DNA of 43,614 nucleotides from Parapedobacter soli. GTDB lineage: Bacteria; Bacteroidota; Bacteroidia; Sphingobacteriales; Sphingobacteriaceae. Positions 27,093 to 33,412 of this stretch are shown here, one piece after another (positions within the stretch are counted from its first letter, which is position 1; each line of letters starts with the position of its first letter). The stretch is taken from NCBI RefSeq assembly GCF_025460835.1, contig NZ_JAMXAY010000041.1, positions 1-43,614 of the forward strand. The letters run 5' to 3'. A model generated the notes under the pieces. It made no database searches and was not told the DNA's origin. It saw only the letters and a program-made list of their open reading frames with translations. The position numbers and the translations under genes were made by a program.

Positions 27093-27875
27093 ATGGTTTT
27101 CAATTTCAAGAAACGATGGAAGCGGCCGCATAAGGTGGGCCTTGTACTCTCGGGCGGTGGCCTCAGGGGTATCGGGCACCTGGGGGCTATCAAAGCGCTC
27201 GAAGAACATGGTTACCGGCCCTCGGTCATTTCGGGGTGCAGTATGGGCGCTATAATTGGCGCCTTTTATGCCGCCGGCTATACAGCAGATGCGATGTTGA
27301 GTATCATCGAAAAAAACAACCTATTCCCTACAACAAGCTTCCGGCTACGGACGTCCGGCTTCCTAGACAGCCACTTCGTCTCGCGAATGATACAGAAGCA
27401 CATCCCTGCAAACACCTTCGAATCATTGAAAACACCGTTATATGTAGCCGCAACGAATTTTACATCGGGCCAGATCGAATACTTCCACTCGGGCACCTTG
27501 GATGAAGCGCTTCTAGCCTCATCCAGCGTACCATTGATGTTTCCCGCAGTAAAACACAAAGGCTCCATATATTATGATGGTGGTATACTCGACAACCTAC
27601 CTGTAAAGCCGTTGCTTGGACAATGCAAGTTCTTAATCGGAGTACATGTAAATGCACCCAACCGGATTATGGCAGACAAACTCAGCCCTGCCAAGGTATT
27701 CGACCGGATTACACATCTCGCAATCGGACATTCCGTAGCAGAGAGTGCGAAGAAATGCAACCTGTTTCTAGAACCACCCGAAATGCTACAATTCGGGATG
27801 TTCGAAAAAAAGGAAGTGATGGCTATTTATGAATATGTTTATACGTATGTCTCACAGCGTCTCACGAATGTCTGA
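27093..27875 (+). CDS. patatin-like phospholipase
   Basis: 260 aa. A Ser-Asp dyad lipid acyl hydrolase. The oxyanion-hole motif GGGLRG is at 21-26, the nucleophile elbow GCSMG at 48-52 (Ser50), and the catalytic Asp in DGG at 163-165. There is no signal peptide, so it acts in the cytoplasm or at the inner membrane face. Length and motif spacing match the small bacterial RssA-like group. The start ATG fits the short basic N-terminus KKRWKRPHK. It stands alone upstream of the aromatic operon promoter; I see no convincing terminator between them. Confidence 0.93.
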   Translation: MVFNFKKRWKRPHKVGLVLSGGGLRGIGHLGAIKALEEHGYRPSVISGCSMGAIIGAFYAAGYTADAMLSIIEKNNLFPTTSFRLRTSGFLDSHFVSRMIQKHIPANTFESLKTPLYVAATNFTSGQIEYFHSGTLDEALLASSSVPLMFPAVKHKGSIYYDGGILDNLPVKPLLGQCKFLIGVHVNAPNRIMADKLSPAKVFDRITHLAIGHSVAESAKKCNLFLEPPEMLQFGMFEKKEVMAIYEYVYTYVSQRLTNV

Positions 27876-27966: not shown

Positions 27967-27996
27967 TTGATAATAAAGAAAAATAGCGTAAATTTG
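27967..27996 (+). promoter_or_regulatory. promoter of the aromatic amino acid operon
   Basis: A -33 TTG (27967-27969) and an exact -7 box TAAATTTG (27989-27996) are separated by 19 bases, the Bacteroidota spacing. Transcription would begin near 28002, about a dozen bases before the leader peptide start. Confidence 0.7.
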
Positions 27997-28014
27997 GCTC
28001 GTCAAATAAGGAAA

Positions 28015-28083
28015 ATGTTAATAGAGAACAACGCATATCGGTTTTTCGGTTTCTTTTACTTTACCAGTGAATGCCGGGATTGA
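28015..28083 (+). CDS. Phe/Tyr-rich leader peptide of the pheA operon
   Basis: 22 codons, ATG 28015 to TGA 28081-28083. Codons 8-16 read YRFFGFFYF: five Phe (codons 10, 11, 13, 14, 16) and two Tyr (8, 15). AAGGA lies just before the ATG. It sits between a consensus promoter and an attenuator hairpin directly in front of pheA, which makes the aromatic run very unlikely to be chance. A ribosome stalled on the Phe codons would leave the antiterminator arm free; one that reaches the stop codon would cover it. It is too short for normal gene calling. Confidence 0.85.
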   Translation: MLIENNAYRFFGFFYFTSECRD

Positions 28084-28130
28084 TATGCATTGATAACGAA
28101 ATAAGGTATAAATGTAGAAAAGTCCCGGCA
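28072..28130 (+). promoter_or_regulatory. antiterminator hairpin of the pheA attenuator
   Basis: UGCCGGGAUU (28072-28081), formed by the last codons of the leader peptide and the U of its stop, is complementary to AGUCCCGGCA (28121-28130) over ten pairs with one G-U. The downstream arm is the same segment that forms the 5' arm of the terminator, so the two structures exclude each other. Confidence 0.8.
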
Positions 28131-28150
28131 CGAAAGCCGGGATTTTTTTT
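28118..28150 (+). terminator. attenuator terminator in front of pheA
   Basis: TCCCGGC (28123-28129) pairs with GCCGGGA (28136-28142) around the loop ACGAAA and is followed by eight Ts (28143-28150). It ends 17 bases before the pheA ATG and after the operon promoter, so it terminates inside the leader. GCCGGGA also occurs at 28073-28079, the competing antiterminator arm. Confidence 0.9.
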
Positions 28151-28167
28151 GTCCATACAAAAAGAAC

Positions 28168-28992
28168 ATGAGTATAAAAGTCGCCATACAAGGTATCAAA
28201 GGATGCTTCCATGAAGAAGCAGCTTACAAGTATTTTGGCAATGATATTGAAACTGTAGAATGCGAGTCATTTAAAAAAACCTGCGAATTGCTTAAGCATG
28301 GCCAGGTCGACCACGTCGTAATGGCTATCGAAAACTCCATCGCCGGCGGATTATTGCCAAATCATGCCCTGCTGCGCGATTACCGCTTCACCATCATCGG
28401 TGAAGTATATCTGCACATCAAACTCCACCTGTTGGCTGTTCCCGGCACCACTATCCAAGACATCAAGTTCGTCGAATCACATCCCATTGCCTTACAGCAA
28501 TGCAGCGACTTCCTTGAAGAAAATCCACAGTTCAAAGTCACCGAGGGAGAAGACACTGCCGGAAGTGCAAAAAAGGTAAGCGAGTTGCAGCTAACAGATA
28601 CCGCCGCAATTGCCAATCAACTATCAGCGAAGTTATATGGGTTGGATATCCTGGAAAGACGTATTGAAACCAACAAAAAAAACTATACCCGGTTCCTTAT
28701 CCTAGCTAGGGAAGCAGTAGAAAAAGAAAATACCAACAAAGCCATGCTTTCATTCCAGACTGGCAATGGGGTAGGGTCACTCTCCAATGTGCTGAAATGT
28801 TTCGCTGAGCAAAATATCAACCTCAGCCGTATACAATCTATGCCGGTGTTGGGCAAACGCAATGAATATGAGTTCTATGTAGATTTGGAATGGCAAAACC
28901 AGGCTGACTATGAGGCTGCAATACGCCGGGTATTAAAGCATACAAATAATTTCAACATCATGGGCGAATATGTAAAAAATGATAAGGTTTGA
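28168..28992 (+). CDS. pheA: prephenate dehydratase
   Basis: 274 aa. Converts prephenate to phenylpyruvate, the committed step to phenylalanine. The catalytic PDT domain spans about 1-185: VAIQGIKGCFHEEAAYKYFG, VMAIENSIAGGLL, VESHPIALQQCSDFL, and the signature NYTRFLIL with the TRF motif. A C-terminal ACT domain (about 193-270) has GVGSLSNVLKCFAEQNINLS and SRIQSMP, the Phe-binding regulatory region. So control is likely twofold: allosteric by Phe, and transcriptional through the attenuator 17 bases upstream. There is no fused chorismate mutase; that activity is in the next gene. First structural gene of the operon. Confidence 0.96.
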   Translation: MSIKVAIQGIKGCFHEEAAYKYFGNDIETVECESFKKTCELLKHGQVDHVVMAIENSIAGGLLPNHALLRDYRFTIIGEVYLHIKLHLLAVPGTTIQDIKFVESHPIALQQCSDFLEENPQFKVTEGEDTAGSAKKVSELQLTDTAAIANQLSAKLYGLDILERRIETNKKNYTRFLILAREAVEKENTNKAMLSFQTGNGVGSLSNVLKCFAEQNINLSRIQSMPVLGKRNEYEFYVDLEWQNQADYEAAIRRVLKHTNNFNIMGEYVKNDKV

Positions 28993-29074: not shown

Positions 29075-30181
29075 ATGAAACAGACATTAGACATTGTACC
29101 CTTGAAATCATGGATTGATACCGGCGACTTGCCATTGGTCATAGCCGGACCATGCAGTGCCGAAACGGAAGAACAAGTATTGGCCACTGCTCACCTACTT
29201 GCCAATACTGGCAAAGTAAACGTACTCCGCGCAGGTATCTGGAAACCTCGTACACGCCCCGGTGAGTTTGAAGGTATCGGCAGCATTGGCCTGCAATGGC
29301 TGCGTAAGGCCAAAGACGAAACGGGTTTGCCTATCACAACGGAGGTCGCCACGGCCAAACACGTTGAAGAGGCCCTCGCTGCCGGCGTGGATATCCTGTG
29401 GATAGGAGCCCGTTCTACCGCCAATCCCTTCACCGTACAAGAAATAGCCGATGCGTTGAAAGGTGTAGATGTACCGGTATTAGTCAAAAACCCGGTTAAC
29501 CCAGACCTCTCCCTTTGGTTAGGTGCCCTCGAACGCGTAAACCGTGCCGGTATCAGAAAACTGGGTGCTATACACCGAGGTTTCTCCTCCTACGAAAAAA
29601 CGGCATTCCGCAATGAGCCGATGTGGGATCTGGCGATCCAGCTCAAAACGATGGTACCCGAACTTCCCGTGATTAACGATCCCAGCCATATCTGTGGCAA
29701 CCGCGAGTTGATACCTTACATTGCACAAAAAGCACTGGACATGGACATGCAGGGGCTTATCATCGAATCGCATATCGACCCCTCCGTGGCATGGACCGAT
29801 GCAAAACAACAAGTGACTCCGCAAGCACTTGCCGAAATCATTACGAACCTCGTTGCCAGACACGCAGAGTCAAACGATCCTGTATTCGAAGACAAGCTAG
29901 CCGAATTCAGAAAAGACATCGATAAGCTGGACGACCAAATTATCAAAATCATAAGCGACCGGATGAAAATCGTTGAAAAGATCGGCGAATACAAGCGCGA
30001 CAATAATGTGACCATCCTGCAAGTAAGCCGCTGGGACGAGATTATCCAAAAGCGCAGCAATGTGGCACAGGCTCTTAAGCTCGATAAGGAATTCACCGTG
30101 AAGCTGCTTGAGCTCATCCACAACGAATCTATCCGCAAGCAAAATGAAATTATGAACACCACACCAGCAGCGGAGGCATAA
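29075..30181 (+). CDS. 3-deoxy-7-phosphoheptulonate synthase fused to chorismate mutase (type II)
   Basis: 368 aa. The N-terminal part (about 1-265) is a DAHP synthase of the KDO8P-synthase-like (type I beta) group: VIAGPCSAETEEQ with the metal Cys, GIWKPRTRPGEFEGIG, TTEVATAKHVEEAL, VINDPSHICGNRELI with the metal His, and LIIESHIDPSVAWTDAKQQV. It condenses phosphoenolpyruvate and erythrose 4-phosphate, the entry to the shikimate pathway. The C-terminal part (about 275-358) is an AroQ-type chorismate mutase: FRKDIDKLDDQIIKIISDRM and VEKIGEYKRDNN, making prephenate for PheA. The two ends of the aromatic route are thus joined in one protein. The stop overlaps the aroA ATG as TAATG. The 82-bp gap after pheA has only a weak hairpin (GATGT/ACATC) and is A-rich. 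Confidence 0.95.
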   Translation: MKQTLDIVPLKSWIDTGDLPLVIAGPCSAETEEQVLATAHLLANTGKVNVLRAGIWKPRTRPGEFEGIGSIGLQWLRKAKDETGLPITTEVATAKHVEEALAAGVDILWIGARSTANPFTVQEIADALKGVDVPVLVKNPVNPDLSLWLGALERVNRAGIRKLGAIHRGFSSYEKTAFRNEPMWDLAIQLKTMVPELPVINDPSHICGNRELIPYIAQKALDMDMQGLIIESHIDPSVAWTDAKQQVTPQALAEIITNLVARHAESNDPVFEDKLAEFRKDIDKLDDQIIKIISDRMKIVEKIGEYKRDNNVTILQVSRWDEIIQKRSNVAQALKLDKEFTVKLLELIHNESIRKQNEIMNTTPAAEA

Positions 30182-31437
30182 TGGCGAATCGGGTAATCGG
30201 GCTATTCCACCCAACAAAGTCGCTCGGCGGCACCGTAAAGCTCACTGGGTCGAAAAGCGAGAGTAACCGGGCATTGATTATCGAAGCCCTCGGACACGGC
30301 AGCGTAACGATTGAAAACCTTTCCGAAGCTGCCGATACCGTAGTGTTGAGGGAAGCACTCACCAAAGTAACGGCGGCCGACAGGGATTCTGAAATACCGA
30401 TCGATATCGGCCCTGCTGGTACGGCCATGCGGTTCTTAACCGCCTATTTAAGCATAACAAGCGGCCGTTACCAACTCACAGGTAGCGAACGGATGCAGCA
30501 GCGGCCCATTGGCATATTGGTAGAGGCACTGAAAACGTTGGGGGCCAACATCCAGTATACCGGACAACCGGGCTATCCCCCACTCGCCATCCAGGGTGGC
30601 TTAGATCAGCAGACCACCGCTATACGAATAAAAGGCGATGTAAGCAGCCAATACTTATCGGCGTTATTACTCGTCGCTAGCGCCCTGCCTCACGGATTGC
30701 AACTACAAATCGAGGGCGAACTTACCTCTCGCCCCTACCTCACCATGACGCTGGACATGCTAGCAGAGGCCGGTGTATCACATCATTGGGTGGCCAACAC
30801 CATCACCGTCGCTCCCCAGACGGTAAAACCCTGCCAATTGGTCATCGAACCCGATTGGAGCGCAGCATCTTATTGGTATGCAATGGTGGCTTTGGCCGAT
30901 AAAGCCAATCTCTTCCTACCGAACCTGAAAGAGAATACCCTCCAGGGAGATGCCGCAATAGCAACCATCATGGCTGACTTCGGAGTAATCTCCTCGTTTG
31001 AAAACGGCGGCTTGCGCATCCAGAAAACGATATCCGGCGGTACCGGCGAGAAAAAAACACTCGACTTTACCGAATGCCCCGATCTTGCCCAAACAGTCAT
31101 TGTTTGTGCAGCAGCTCAGCGACGGAATCTCTCATTCACAGGCCTGCATACGCTCCGGATCAAGGAAACAGACCGGGTAGCGGCATTGCAACACGAACTG
31201 GCTAAAATAGGGGTGCAGCTGATAGAAGATGGTACCGTATACCATCTCCATACCGAAGGTTTGTTCCGCCCGGTAAGTCTGACCATCGACACATACGAAG
31301 ATCACCGGATGGCCATGGCATTTGCACCACTGGCATTGGTATTCCATGGCGTACGGATCAATGAACCCAATGTGGTAGAAAAATCATATCCCGACTTTTG
31401 GAAACATTTGAAACAACAGGGATTTATTATATCTTAG
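30181..31437 (+). CDS. aroA: 3-phosphoshikimate 1-carboxyvinyltransferase (EPSP synthase)
   Basis: 418 aa. Transfers the enolpyruvyl group of phosphoenolpyruvate to shikimate 3-phosphate. Family landmarks: the N-terminal LTGSKSESNRALI with the conserved Lys-Ser, the PEP loop IGPAGTAMRFLTA (about 76-87), RMQQRPIGILVEALKTLGA, GDVSSQYLSALLL, and the C-terminal LRIKETDRVAAL and YEDHRMAMAF. At the position of the E. coli Pro101 (TAMRP) this enzyme has Phe85 (TAMRF), seemingly usual in the phylum. The start overlaps the previous stop by one base. aroC follows after 24 bases. Confidence 0.96.
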   Translation: MANRVIGLFHPTKSLGGTVKLTGSKSESNRALIIEALGHGSVTIENLSEAADTVVLREALTKVTAADRDSEIPIDIGPAGTAMRFLTAYLSITSGRYQLTGSERMQQRPIGILVEALKTLGANIQYTGQPGYPPLAIQGGLDQQTTAIRIKGDVSSQYLSALLLVASALPHGLQLQIEGELTSRPYLTMTLDMLAEAGVSHHWVANTITVAPQTVKPCQLVIEPDWSAASYWYAMVALADKANLFLPNLKENTLQGDAAIATIMADFGVISSFENGGLRIQKTISGGTGEKKTLDFTECPDLAQTVIVCAAAQRRNLSFTGLHTLRIKETDRVAALQHELAKIGVQLIEDGTVYHLHTEGLFRPVSLTIDTYEDHRMAMAFAPLALVFHGVRINEPNVVEKSYPDFWKHLKQQGFIIS

Positions 31438-31461: not shown

Positions 31462-32562
31462 ATGGCGGGAAATTCATTTGGAGATATATTTCGTATTACC
31501 ACGTTCGGTGAGTCGCATGGTGCGGCCATTGGGGTCATTATAGACGGATGCCCGGCGAACATCGCAATAGACGAGTCGTTCATCCAATCCGAATTGGATA
31601 AACGTCGGCCAGGTCAATCCAAGATCACCACGCAACGTAAAGAAAGCGATACAGCCCAAATACTATCCGGCGTGTTTGAAGGCAAGACCACAGGTACACC
31701 ATTAGCCATGGTCATTCCCAATGAGGACCAACGGTCGAAGGATTATTCGCACATCAAGGATAAGTATCGGCCGTCACACGCGGATTACACGTACCAAGTC
31801 AAATATGGCATCCGTGATTACCGTGGTGGTGGGCGCTCGTCAGCCCGCGAGACAGCTGCGCGAGTCGCTGCTGGTGCGGTCGCAAAAAGCCTCCTCGCAC
31901 AATCGGGTATCCGCATTTTCGCCCATGTATCCGGTGTCGGAAAAATCGAAGCTCCAAACCTGGAGCCACTGCCAATCGACGAGCTTATCCAAATCCGTGA
32001 AAGCAATATCGTACGTTGCGCCGACCCCGCCACGGCCAATGAGATGGTCGATTTCATTGATAGCATCCGTAAAGCCGGCGACACCGTGGGCGGCCGCATT
32101 AGCGTGGTCATCCAACAAGTACCCGTAGGATTGGGCGAACCAGTTTTCGATAAATTACATGCCGATTTGGCTAAAGCTATGTTGAGCATCAATGCGGTTC
32201 ACGGTTTCGAATACGGGTCTGGATTTGCCGGATCGGAAATGCAAGGGTCCGAGCATAATGATATTTTCGTTAACCCCGAAGCAGATGCGCAACACCTCAA
32301 AACGTTGACGAACTTCTCAGGAGGTATTCAAGGGGGGATATCAAACGGCATGGATATAACATTCAGGGTGGCGTTCAAACCCGTAGCCACCATCATGCGT
32401 CCGCAACAAACAATTGACCAAACCGGCAAAAGCACCGAAATCACCGGCAAAGGCAGGCACGATCCGTGTGTGGTACCACGGGCAGTAATCATTGTAGAAG
32501 CAATGGCAGCGCTGGTAATGGCCGACCATTTACTCAAAAACCGGATTTATGAAACAAAATAA
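31462..32562 (+). CDS. aroC: chorismate synthase
   Basis: 366 aa. Makes chorismate from EPSP with reduced FMN, the last step of the shikimate pathway. The three family signatures are clear: [19 protein letters not shown] (start), [16 protein letters not shown], and [20 protein letters not shown] (about 125-144). [13 protein letters not shown] and [17 protein letters not shown] complete the C-terminal half. Full length. Its last 14 bases overlap the ROK kinase start, so the kinase is translated with it. Confidence 0.97.
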
Positions 32563-33412
32563 CCAGTTCGTAATCGCTTCAGATATCGGAGGGACTCATA
32601 TTACTGCTGCCCTCGTAGACACTACCGATTGGAAGGTAGTCACCGAATCTATCGTCAGGCATTGTGTAAATTCACACGCTGATGCTAAATCGATTTTATC
32701 GGCTTGGGCAGCTCCGTTTCAGGAAATTATTAGAAGTAACCCAGCATTATCAGCCACACCGTCCATAGGAATCGCAATGCCTGGGCCGTTCGATTATGAA
32801 TGCGGAATTTCGCATATGCGCGACCAAGATAAGTACGATAGCTTGTATGGAATGGATATCCGAAAGGAATTGGCAGAGCGGCTCGGTATAAGTGGTGGAA
32901 ACATTCGGTTTATGAACGATGCAGCCGCATTCTTACAGGGAGAAGTCTTTGCTGGAAAACATCATGACCACACTAAGATCCTAGGTATTACGTTGGGTAC
33001 CGGACTTGGTACCGCAGTCTGGGAAAAAGGTAGCAACGCGGTAGATGCTGACTTATGGAAAACTCCGTATCGCGACAGCAATGCGGAAGAACATCTCGTG
33101 ACCCGATGGTTCGTGCGGGAAGCCGCCAAATACGACATAACGGTAACGGGCCTCAGGGAGTTACTACAGGTCCGGGATAATAGTACCGCCGTCGACGATA
33201 TTCTAGCCGAATACAGCAACCACCTGCTCGCTTTCATCCATTTTTTCAGTAGCAAAGAGGCTACCAATAAGTTCATTATAGGAGGCAATATCTCCAAAGC
33301 GTGGAACGTGTTCCGGGCATTTAATCCCGATGCCTTCGAAAATTTCGATATACATATCAGCCAATTAGGCGAAGATGCTGCATTGATTGGTGCAGCTGCA
33401 CAGTTTGCCTAA
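32549..33412 (+). CDS. ROK-family sugar kinase-like protein
   Basis: 287 aa. The ATP-binding phosphate-1 motif DIGGTH is at 12-17 and the second motif [10 protein letters not shown] at about 148-157. [11 protein letters not shown] and [13 protein letters not shown] (with the candidate catalytic Asp in NDA) match ROK glucokinases. The zinc-binding CxCGxxGCxE motif of typical ROK members is absent: the equivalent stretch has no cysteines. It is therefore either a zinc-free branch or a protein with changed activity. No DNA-binding domain is present. It overlaps aroC by 14 bases, ending the aromatic operon. Sugar specificity and the reason for this location are unknown. Confidence 0.85.

Follow-up and report, generated by a model that had tools for sequence, protein, structure and literature searches.

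The pheA gene of Escherichia coli is preceded by an attenuator in which a Phe-rich leader peptide, competing RNA helices and a U-tract are arranged ahead of the gene. Predicted attenuators in Bacteroidetes/Chlorobi are reportedly named in the abstract of Vitreschak 2004 (FEMS Microbiol Lett 234:357). In Rfam, the gamma-proteobacterial element is represented by Phe_leader (RF01859). Weinberg 2010 (PMC2864571) lists Bacteroid-trp (RF01692) as a cis-regulatory RNA of Bacteroidetes and, judging by its name, it is probably a Trp leader. In PMC9723704, clues for leader-peptide attenuation are described for amino-acid operons of Flavobacterium psychrophilum, as is a structured 5' element that precedes pheA and is conserved in Flavobacteriaceae. 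PMC7366714 notes that some sORFs of Bacteroides thetaiotaomicron recall leader peptides. A search of the titles and abstract openings of the open-licence literature found no experimental pheA attenuator in Bacteroidota. An earlier, sequence-only reading of the DNA considered here had been aware of no experimentally described case in the phylum, and that part of its claim stands for the literature searched, whereas hints of attenuation were already in print, in PMC9723704 and in the Rfam entry for Bacteroid-trp.

The window (the whole stretch of 43,614 nucleotides of Parapedobacter soli DNA that was analysed) contains a pheA gene encoding prephenate dehydratase (28168-28992, plus strand; Pfam PF00800, 2.1e-55). 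It is followed on the same strand by a DAHP synthase-chorismate mutase fusion (29075-30181; PF00793 and PF01817), aroA, encoding 3-phosphoshikimate 1-carboxyvinyltransferase (30181-31437; TIGR01356, above cut-off), and aroC, encoding chorismate synthase (31462-32562; TIGR00033, above cut-off). These genes are presumably co-transcribed with pheA as the first gene, and a ROK-family kinase-like gene (32549-33412, plus strand; PF00480), which overlaps the end of aroC, may also belong to the operon. On the 5' side the leader region adjoins a patatin-like phospholipase gene on the same strand (27093-27875). We estimate a probability of roughly 0.92 that the region between these genes acts as an attenuator of the trp/phe type, in which a translating ribosome decides on transcription and which would control the pheA-DAHP synthase/chorismate mutase-aroA-aroC operon; the effect on transcription is predicted from the sequence and from folding models.

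The putative promoter (27967-27996, plus strand) is of the Bacteroidota type, with TTG at 27967-27969, a spacing of 19 nt and TAAATTTG at 27989-27996; TTG / TAnnTTTG is the consensus for the phylum. In 88 of 90 upstream regions from the same family the TAnnTTTG (-7) motif was present no more than 40 nt 5' of the point where the leader starts, compared with 4 of 339 control blocks. The leader ORF, MLIENNAYRFFGFFYFTSECRD, runs from an ATG at 28015 to 28083 on the plus strand and comprises 22 codons (predicted translation) with a TGA stop at 28081-28083. Codons 8-16 (YRFFGFFYF, 28036-28062) include five Phe and two Tyr codons among nine, so that, at the sequence level, a short leader ORF carries tandem codons for the end product.

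Four segments on the plus strand can be recognised in the RNA. Segment 1 (28029-28050), identified from the fold and its conserved core, is the 5' side of a protector hairpin. Segment 2 (28072-28092) contains the 5' arm of the antiterminator (28072-28081) and the 3' side of the protector (28073-28092). Segment 3 (28116-28130) has alternative partners, pairing either with segment 2 through 28121-28130 or with segment 4 through 28116-28129. Segment 4 and the U-tract (28136-28150) supply the 3' arm of the terminator (28136-28149) and eight T residues (28143-28150). The antiterminator joins 28072-28081 to 28121-28130 by ten pairs, one of them G-U, and the terminator core joins 28123-28129 to 28136-28142, with the eight T immediately following. 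The motif GCCGGGA occurs at both 28073 and 28136. Antiterminator (2:3) and terminator (3:4) are mutually exclusive, having segment 3 in common, and an intrinsic terminator with a U-tract lies ahead of the first structural gene. The promoter, the 22-codon leader with its YRFFGFFYF run, the ten-pair antiterminator, the terminator, the eight T and the duplicated GCCGGGA had all been described in the sequence-only reading, and each was found where that reading had placed it.

The same reading had seen no obvious 1:2 protector hairpin and had proposed a compact three-segment version of the design, and these two points have to be revised. Folded at full length, the leader reaches its energy minimum (-42.3 kcal/mol, z -4.86) as a long 1:2 stem plus the terminator. 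This stem is built from 28029-28031 paired with 28090-28092, 28033-28043 with 28078-28088, and 28046-28050 with 28073-28077, and encloses an inner hairpin; it overlaps leader codons 5-12, and so covers regulatory codons, and it sequesters the antiterminator arm. This hairpin is retained in relatives, with weak covariation. With a conserved hairpin between segments 1 and 2, the leader follows the classical four-segment design. The antiterminator region (28063-28135) is itself unusually stable, at -24.2 kcal/mol (z -5.75), and none of 200 shuffled sequences was equally stable.

In the window, 84 nt separate the end of the leader ORF from pheA, and across the 90 family regions this spacing is 64-170 nt. 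This bears on whether the leader instead aids pheA translation through reinitiation, as PMC4833913 proposes for short leaders. According to that paper, Bacteroidetes leader genes peak 11-14 bp before the gene, which lends the idea some general support; the gap at this locus is much longer and has a terminator within it, making reinitiation a very improbable account. An attenuator is the preferred interpretation of the short ORF.

To assess whether these parts could have arisen by chance, the 292-nt intergenic region was shuffled 5000 times with its dinucleotide composition preserved. None of the shuffles (0/5000) had a leader in which seven or more of nine codons were Phe or Tyr, and none (0/5000) had a GC-rich 7-bp stem followed by T7. 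A simple terminator scan reported this hairpin for the minus strand alone and missed it on the plus strand, probably because A-U pairs prolong the stem into the T run. It could be argued from this call, and from the position of the hairpin between the two genes, that the hairpin is merely the terminator of the patatin-like gene ending at 27875 and that the short ORF is accidental. However, the hairpin lies about 250 nt past that gene and 3' of a promoter, a comparable leader was absent from the shuffles, and both leader and hairpin accompany pheA in relatives, as described below; a terminator for the upstream gene is hardly credible as the function of this element, and attenuation of pheA remains the favoured reading.

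Conservation was examined in Sphingobacteriaceae by searching 201 genomes, including that of the window, of which 183 gave a pheA match. The family set comprised 90 upstream regions (the 30 best matches and 60 picked down the list), and six further regions were added from three uncovered genera, so that the 96 regions span all 22 genera with a match; the count leaves out 87 pheA genomes, including the divergent pheA in G122, G127 and G137. An aromatic leader was found in 96 of 96 regions, the window's included (90/90 and 6/6), and the terminator hairpin in 90 of the 90, with a mean of -19.0 kcal/mol. The 90 leaders start with ATG in 88 cases, GTG in one and TTG in one, and Phe, Tyr or Trp account for 722 of their 1827 residues. 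A second set of 80 loci, which overlaps the searched family genomes, contained 36 loci counted as family (L143-L177 and L217) by title or genus, or by similarity only in the case of L148 and L158; the genera used for part of this assignment are presumably members of Sphingobacteriaceae. Leader and terminator were present in 36 of these 36. Two contigs in this set bear unexpected titles, Legionellaceae (L148) and Bdellovibrio (L221), and their pheA genes are 69% and 45% identical to that of the window, respectively. L148 has a family-type leader; these identities and this leader suggest that the MAGs may be mislabelled or misbinned.

When 41 family genomes were searched with a covariance model of the element, 33 gave a match exceeding 90 bits; this survey is not independent because many of these genomes trained the model. 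In 32 of the 33, comparison of coordinates placed the match directly 5' of pheA; for the other, G035, the position of pheA was not listed. Three genomes (G014, G015 and G038) had weaker matches of 41.9-47.8 bits immediately 5' of pheA, and the five family genomes with no pheA match had no model match above 43 bits. Weak secondary matches were numerous. Seven of the nine that were inspected resemble ordinary terminators and two precede an aspartokinase-like gene with a Thr/Ile leader; a tenth stretch lies 5' of pheA.

Conserved pairing was investigated in an alignment. From the 90 regions, 57 sequences were chosen, no two of which reached a similarity ratio of 0.86, and 53 were aligned; L011 and L013 (weak arms), L016 (displaced stop) and L049 were omitted, and the pair counts lean slightly towards structure as a result. 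As the aligned rows are related, the shuffle counts given here are not probabilities. In the 2:3 helix, 90.7% of 474 cells were paired, compared with at most 57.4% for slid versions; two-sided changes occurred at seven of nine pairs, there were 17 additional pair types, and none of 500 shuffles scored as high. The 3:4 helix was paired in 95.0% of 636 cells, with two-sided changes at 10 of 12 pairs, and again no shuffle (0/500) scored as high. The six-pair core of the 1:2 helix was paired in 88.5% of 314 cells (slid versions at most 66.8%) and had two pairs with two-sided changes; its covariation is weak, the score being reached by 20 of 500 shuffles and the number of two-sided pairs by 386 of 500. 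RNAalifold, applied to the 53-row alignment, returned the terminator and no other helix. Without an alignment, a leader's own duplex was better than a swapped one in 69 of 90 regions for 2:3 and in 77 of 90 for 1:2. The 2:3 duplex exceeded shuffled sequence at the 0.05 level in 85 of 90 regions; it did not do so in L011, L012, L013, L036 and L043 (5/90). The sequence-only reading had named conservation of the Phe run and covariation of the competing arms in relatives as the check on its proposal, and both are seen: the aromatic leader is universal in the 96 regions, and antiterminator and terminator arms covary.

Metabolite-binding riboswitches and T-boxes also commonly combine an intrinsic terminator and an alternative helix, and such an element could sense phenylalanine or its tRNA directly. 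However, the conserved core here consists of an ORF and complementary arms, and the consensus fold has no further domain. A scan of the window with Rfam at gathering score yielded a single tRNA, and between 27950 and 28180 no T-box, amino-acid riboswitch or other Rfam family exceeded its curated cut-off. Direct sensing of this kind is therefore most improbable, and sensing by a translating ribosome is preferred.

In the attenuation mechanism proposed, transcription would begin a few nucleotides past 27996 and a ribosome would initiate on the leader. With charged tRNA-Phe and tRNA-Tyr abundant, the ribosome would reach the stop codon at 28081 and mask segment 2, whereupon the 3:4 terminator would form ahead of pheA. 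If either tRNA were scarce, the ribosome would stall over 28036-28062, covering segment 1 and leaving most of 28072-28081 free; 2:3 would then pair before segment 4 is synthesised, and the polymerase would continue into pheA. If the leader were not translated, the 1:2 hairpin would be expected to form first, and then the terminator.

This scheme was modelled by folding the 90 family leaders with a ribosome whose downstream footprint was assumed to be 14 nt. For transcripts ending after arm 3, stalling at aromatic codons gave the antiterminator a median probability of 0.87, compared with 0.02 when the ribosome occupied the stop codon. Taking the median codon, the probability exceeded 0.5 in 90 of 90 stalled leaders; once the ribosome had reached the stop, it did so in 0 of 90. 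In silico, masking the RNA as far as the stop codon thus abolishes the antiterminator. With arm 3 complete and no ribosome, the median was 0.86 and 88 of 90 leaders exceeded 0.5. The antiterminator is thus favoured even without a ribosome, and thermodynamics alone do not yield the protector effect. Once segment 4 is present, the whole-leader fold without a ribosome is 1:2 plus terminator; a protector role for 1:2 would need kinetics to win.

In equilibrium folds that include segment 4, the terminator dominated in 90 of 90 leaders without a ribosome, in 90 of 90 with a ribosome at the stop, and in 79 of 90 even at the best stall codon. The probability of the terminator fell below 0.5 at the best codon in 11 of 90 leaders, the window barely so (~0.50), and in 3 of 90 when averaged over codons. 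The equilibrium model of the full switch therefore did not reproduce the classical states across the 90 family regions. As the terminator wins at equilibrium once segment 4 exists, the order of synthesis must decide the outcome, as is likewise the case for the E. coli trp attenuator.

The position of arm 2, as judged by the best duplex, varies relative to the ORF: it lies inside the leader ORF in 21 of the 90 regions, across the stop codon in 53 and past it in 16 (in L043 the best duplex coincides with the Phe/Tyr run and has probably missed the true arm). This variation implies that the arm is conserved as RNA and not as peptide. The aromatic run is conserved at the amino-acid level, and both synonymous codons are used for each residue (TTT 245, TTC 82, TAT 194 and TAC 157 in the 90 leaders). 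Codon choice is biased at the Tyr that comes directly behind the first Ala or Thr: TAT encodes it in 73 of 85 cases, and Tyr elsewhere in 121 of 266 (Fisher p 2e-11, a value that takes the leaders as unrelated). In the window this codon sits in segment 1, and the bias fits a constraint imposed by the 1:2 stem.

The leaders encode 351 Tyr, 327 Phe and 44 Trp residues, with a Trp codon in 41 of the 90; as Tyr is as frequent as Phe, 'aromatic leader' is the better name. At codon 9, seven of nine leaders from the genus have the Trp codon TGG, the window has CGG and L005 has CGA. The difference between TGG and the window's CGG converts a U-G pair of the protector stem to C-G. In another genus of the family, the codon preceding FYFYFF is TGG in one of two leaders (L256 and L257) and CGG in the other, a difference of the same Trp-to-Arg kind as in Parapedobacter.

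Leader peptides of the TnaC or ErmC type arrest the ribosome through the nascent chain, and the recurrence in the family of cores such as FFGFFYF or YFGYFYY raises the question of whether this leader responds to free ligand and not to a shortage of charged tRNA. The core, however, varies among Phe, Tyr and Trp, its Gly is replaced by Asn, Ala, Ser, Trp or His in some leaders, and product-induced arrest would regulate a biosynthetic operon in the wrong direction. Arrest by the peptide is consequently very unlikely, and stalling at codons for scarce aminoacyl-tRNAs is the preferred explanation. A broader proposal, to which slightly less than even odds are given, is that the leader reads the charging of tRNAs for Phe and Tyr (and for Trp in those leaders that encode it) as an OR gate over the route from DAHP to phenylalanine, and that it is an old RNA, widespread in class Bacteroidia, that has no matching Rfam entry.

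The distribution of the layout outside the family was surveyed at 69 pheA loci, made up of 25 of the 34 outside matches (the nine weakest were left out) and 44 of the 80 loci of the second set; the two sources may overlap. Across the class as a whole, 39 of 149 genomes had a pheA match. Leader, terminator and pairing arm were found together at 34 of the 69 loci, and all 27 of these that were compared with shuffled sequence reached the 0.05 level (27/27). By title, the carriers include MAGs of Cyclobacteriaceae, Chryseosolibacter, Hymenobacter, and MAGs of Bacteroidales and Salinivirgaceae. The layout was not found at the other 35 of 69 loci, 12 of which are titled Prolixibacteraceae, Maribellus, Draconibacterium, Mariniphaga or Tangfeifania. 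At one such locus, L139, the only one at which it was checked whether pheA comes first, pheA follows closely behind another gene.

Compared with Phe_leader (RF01859), the element described here is alike in having a Phe-rich leader, competing helices, a U-tract and pheA downstream. It differs in showing no sequence relation (the window scores 15.6 bits against a cut-off of 55), in the use of Tyr as often as Phe, and of Trp in a substantial share of leaders (41/90), across the Parapedobacter family, and in the additional presence of DAHP synthase, aroA and aroC in the Parapedobacter operon. Bacteroid-trp had no match in the window by Rfam scan and none in the genome using fast filters that scored 30 of 348 candidates, and it exceeded its cut-off in 2 of 99 genomes of the class. 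As described in PMC9723704, the element in Flavobacteriaceae resembles this one in phylum, gene and the lack of an Rfam hit, and leader-peptide attenuation is named there for amino-acid operons; it belongs to another family. The pheA leader of the window, which has no Rfam match at gathering score, is thus a well-supported addition to a known class of attenuators, in a phylum for which hints had already been published.

Candidate leaders of other specificities were observed in the same genome. Upstream of trpE (L263; G000:C105, upstream of 34133, minus strand) the leader MITDRFLIGLWWWLDSDSVGLEGTVIHS contains three Trp codons in tandem; it is accompanied by a terminator and an arm complementary to it (2:3 fold -26.0), in a genome in which Bacteroid-trp was not found. 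A gene that is presumably aspartokinase-like (L259; G000:C90, upstream of 217654) is preceded by a Thr/Ile leader, VNRNTTITTTITTGYNTRRK, with a GTG start, a terminator and a 2:3 fold of -16.7, and leaders similar to VNRNTTITTTITTGYNTRRK were seen in two other genomes of the family (L243 and L244). E. coli likewise has Thr- and Trp-type leaders, thrL and trpL; the genome studied here has leaders of both kinds (VNRNTTITTTITTGYNTRRK and MITDRFLIGLWWWLDSDSVGLEGTVIHS), at separate loci. Upstream of hisG (L262; G000:C90, upstream of 92443, minus strand) lies an ORF, MQIAFIHPFIHHHRLRGDI, with clustered His codons; no intrinsic terminator was found in that upstream region by the criteria applied, and the ORF is perhaps part of a different kind of attenuator. 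For the ilvB match, neither a leader nor a terminator was noticed in the 420 nt upstream. The Trp and Thr/Ile leaders, alongside that of pheA, suggest that attenuation may be general in this organism.

Attenuation by a leader peptide can work only if translation proceeds as fast as RNA polymerase moves ahead. Bacteroidota have unusual promoters and make little use of Shine-Dalgarno sequences, and attenuators whose arms covary across a family would provide a direct in vivo test of transcription-translation coupling in the phylum. They would also offer a switch that responds to Phe/Tyr, and genome annotation would gain a new RNA family.
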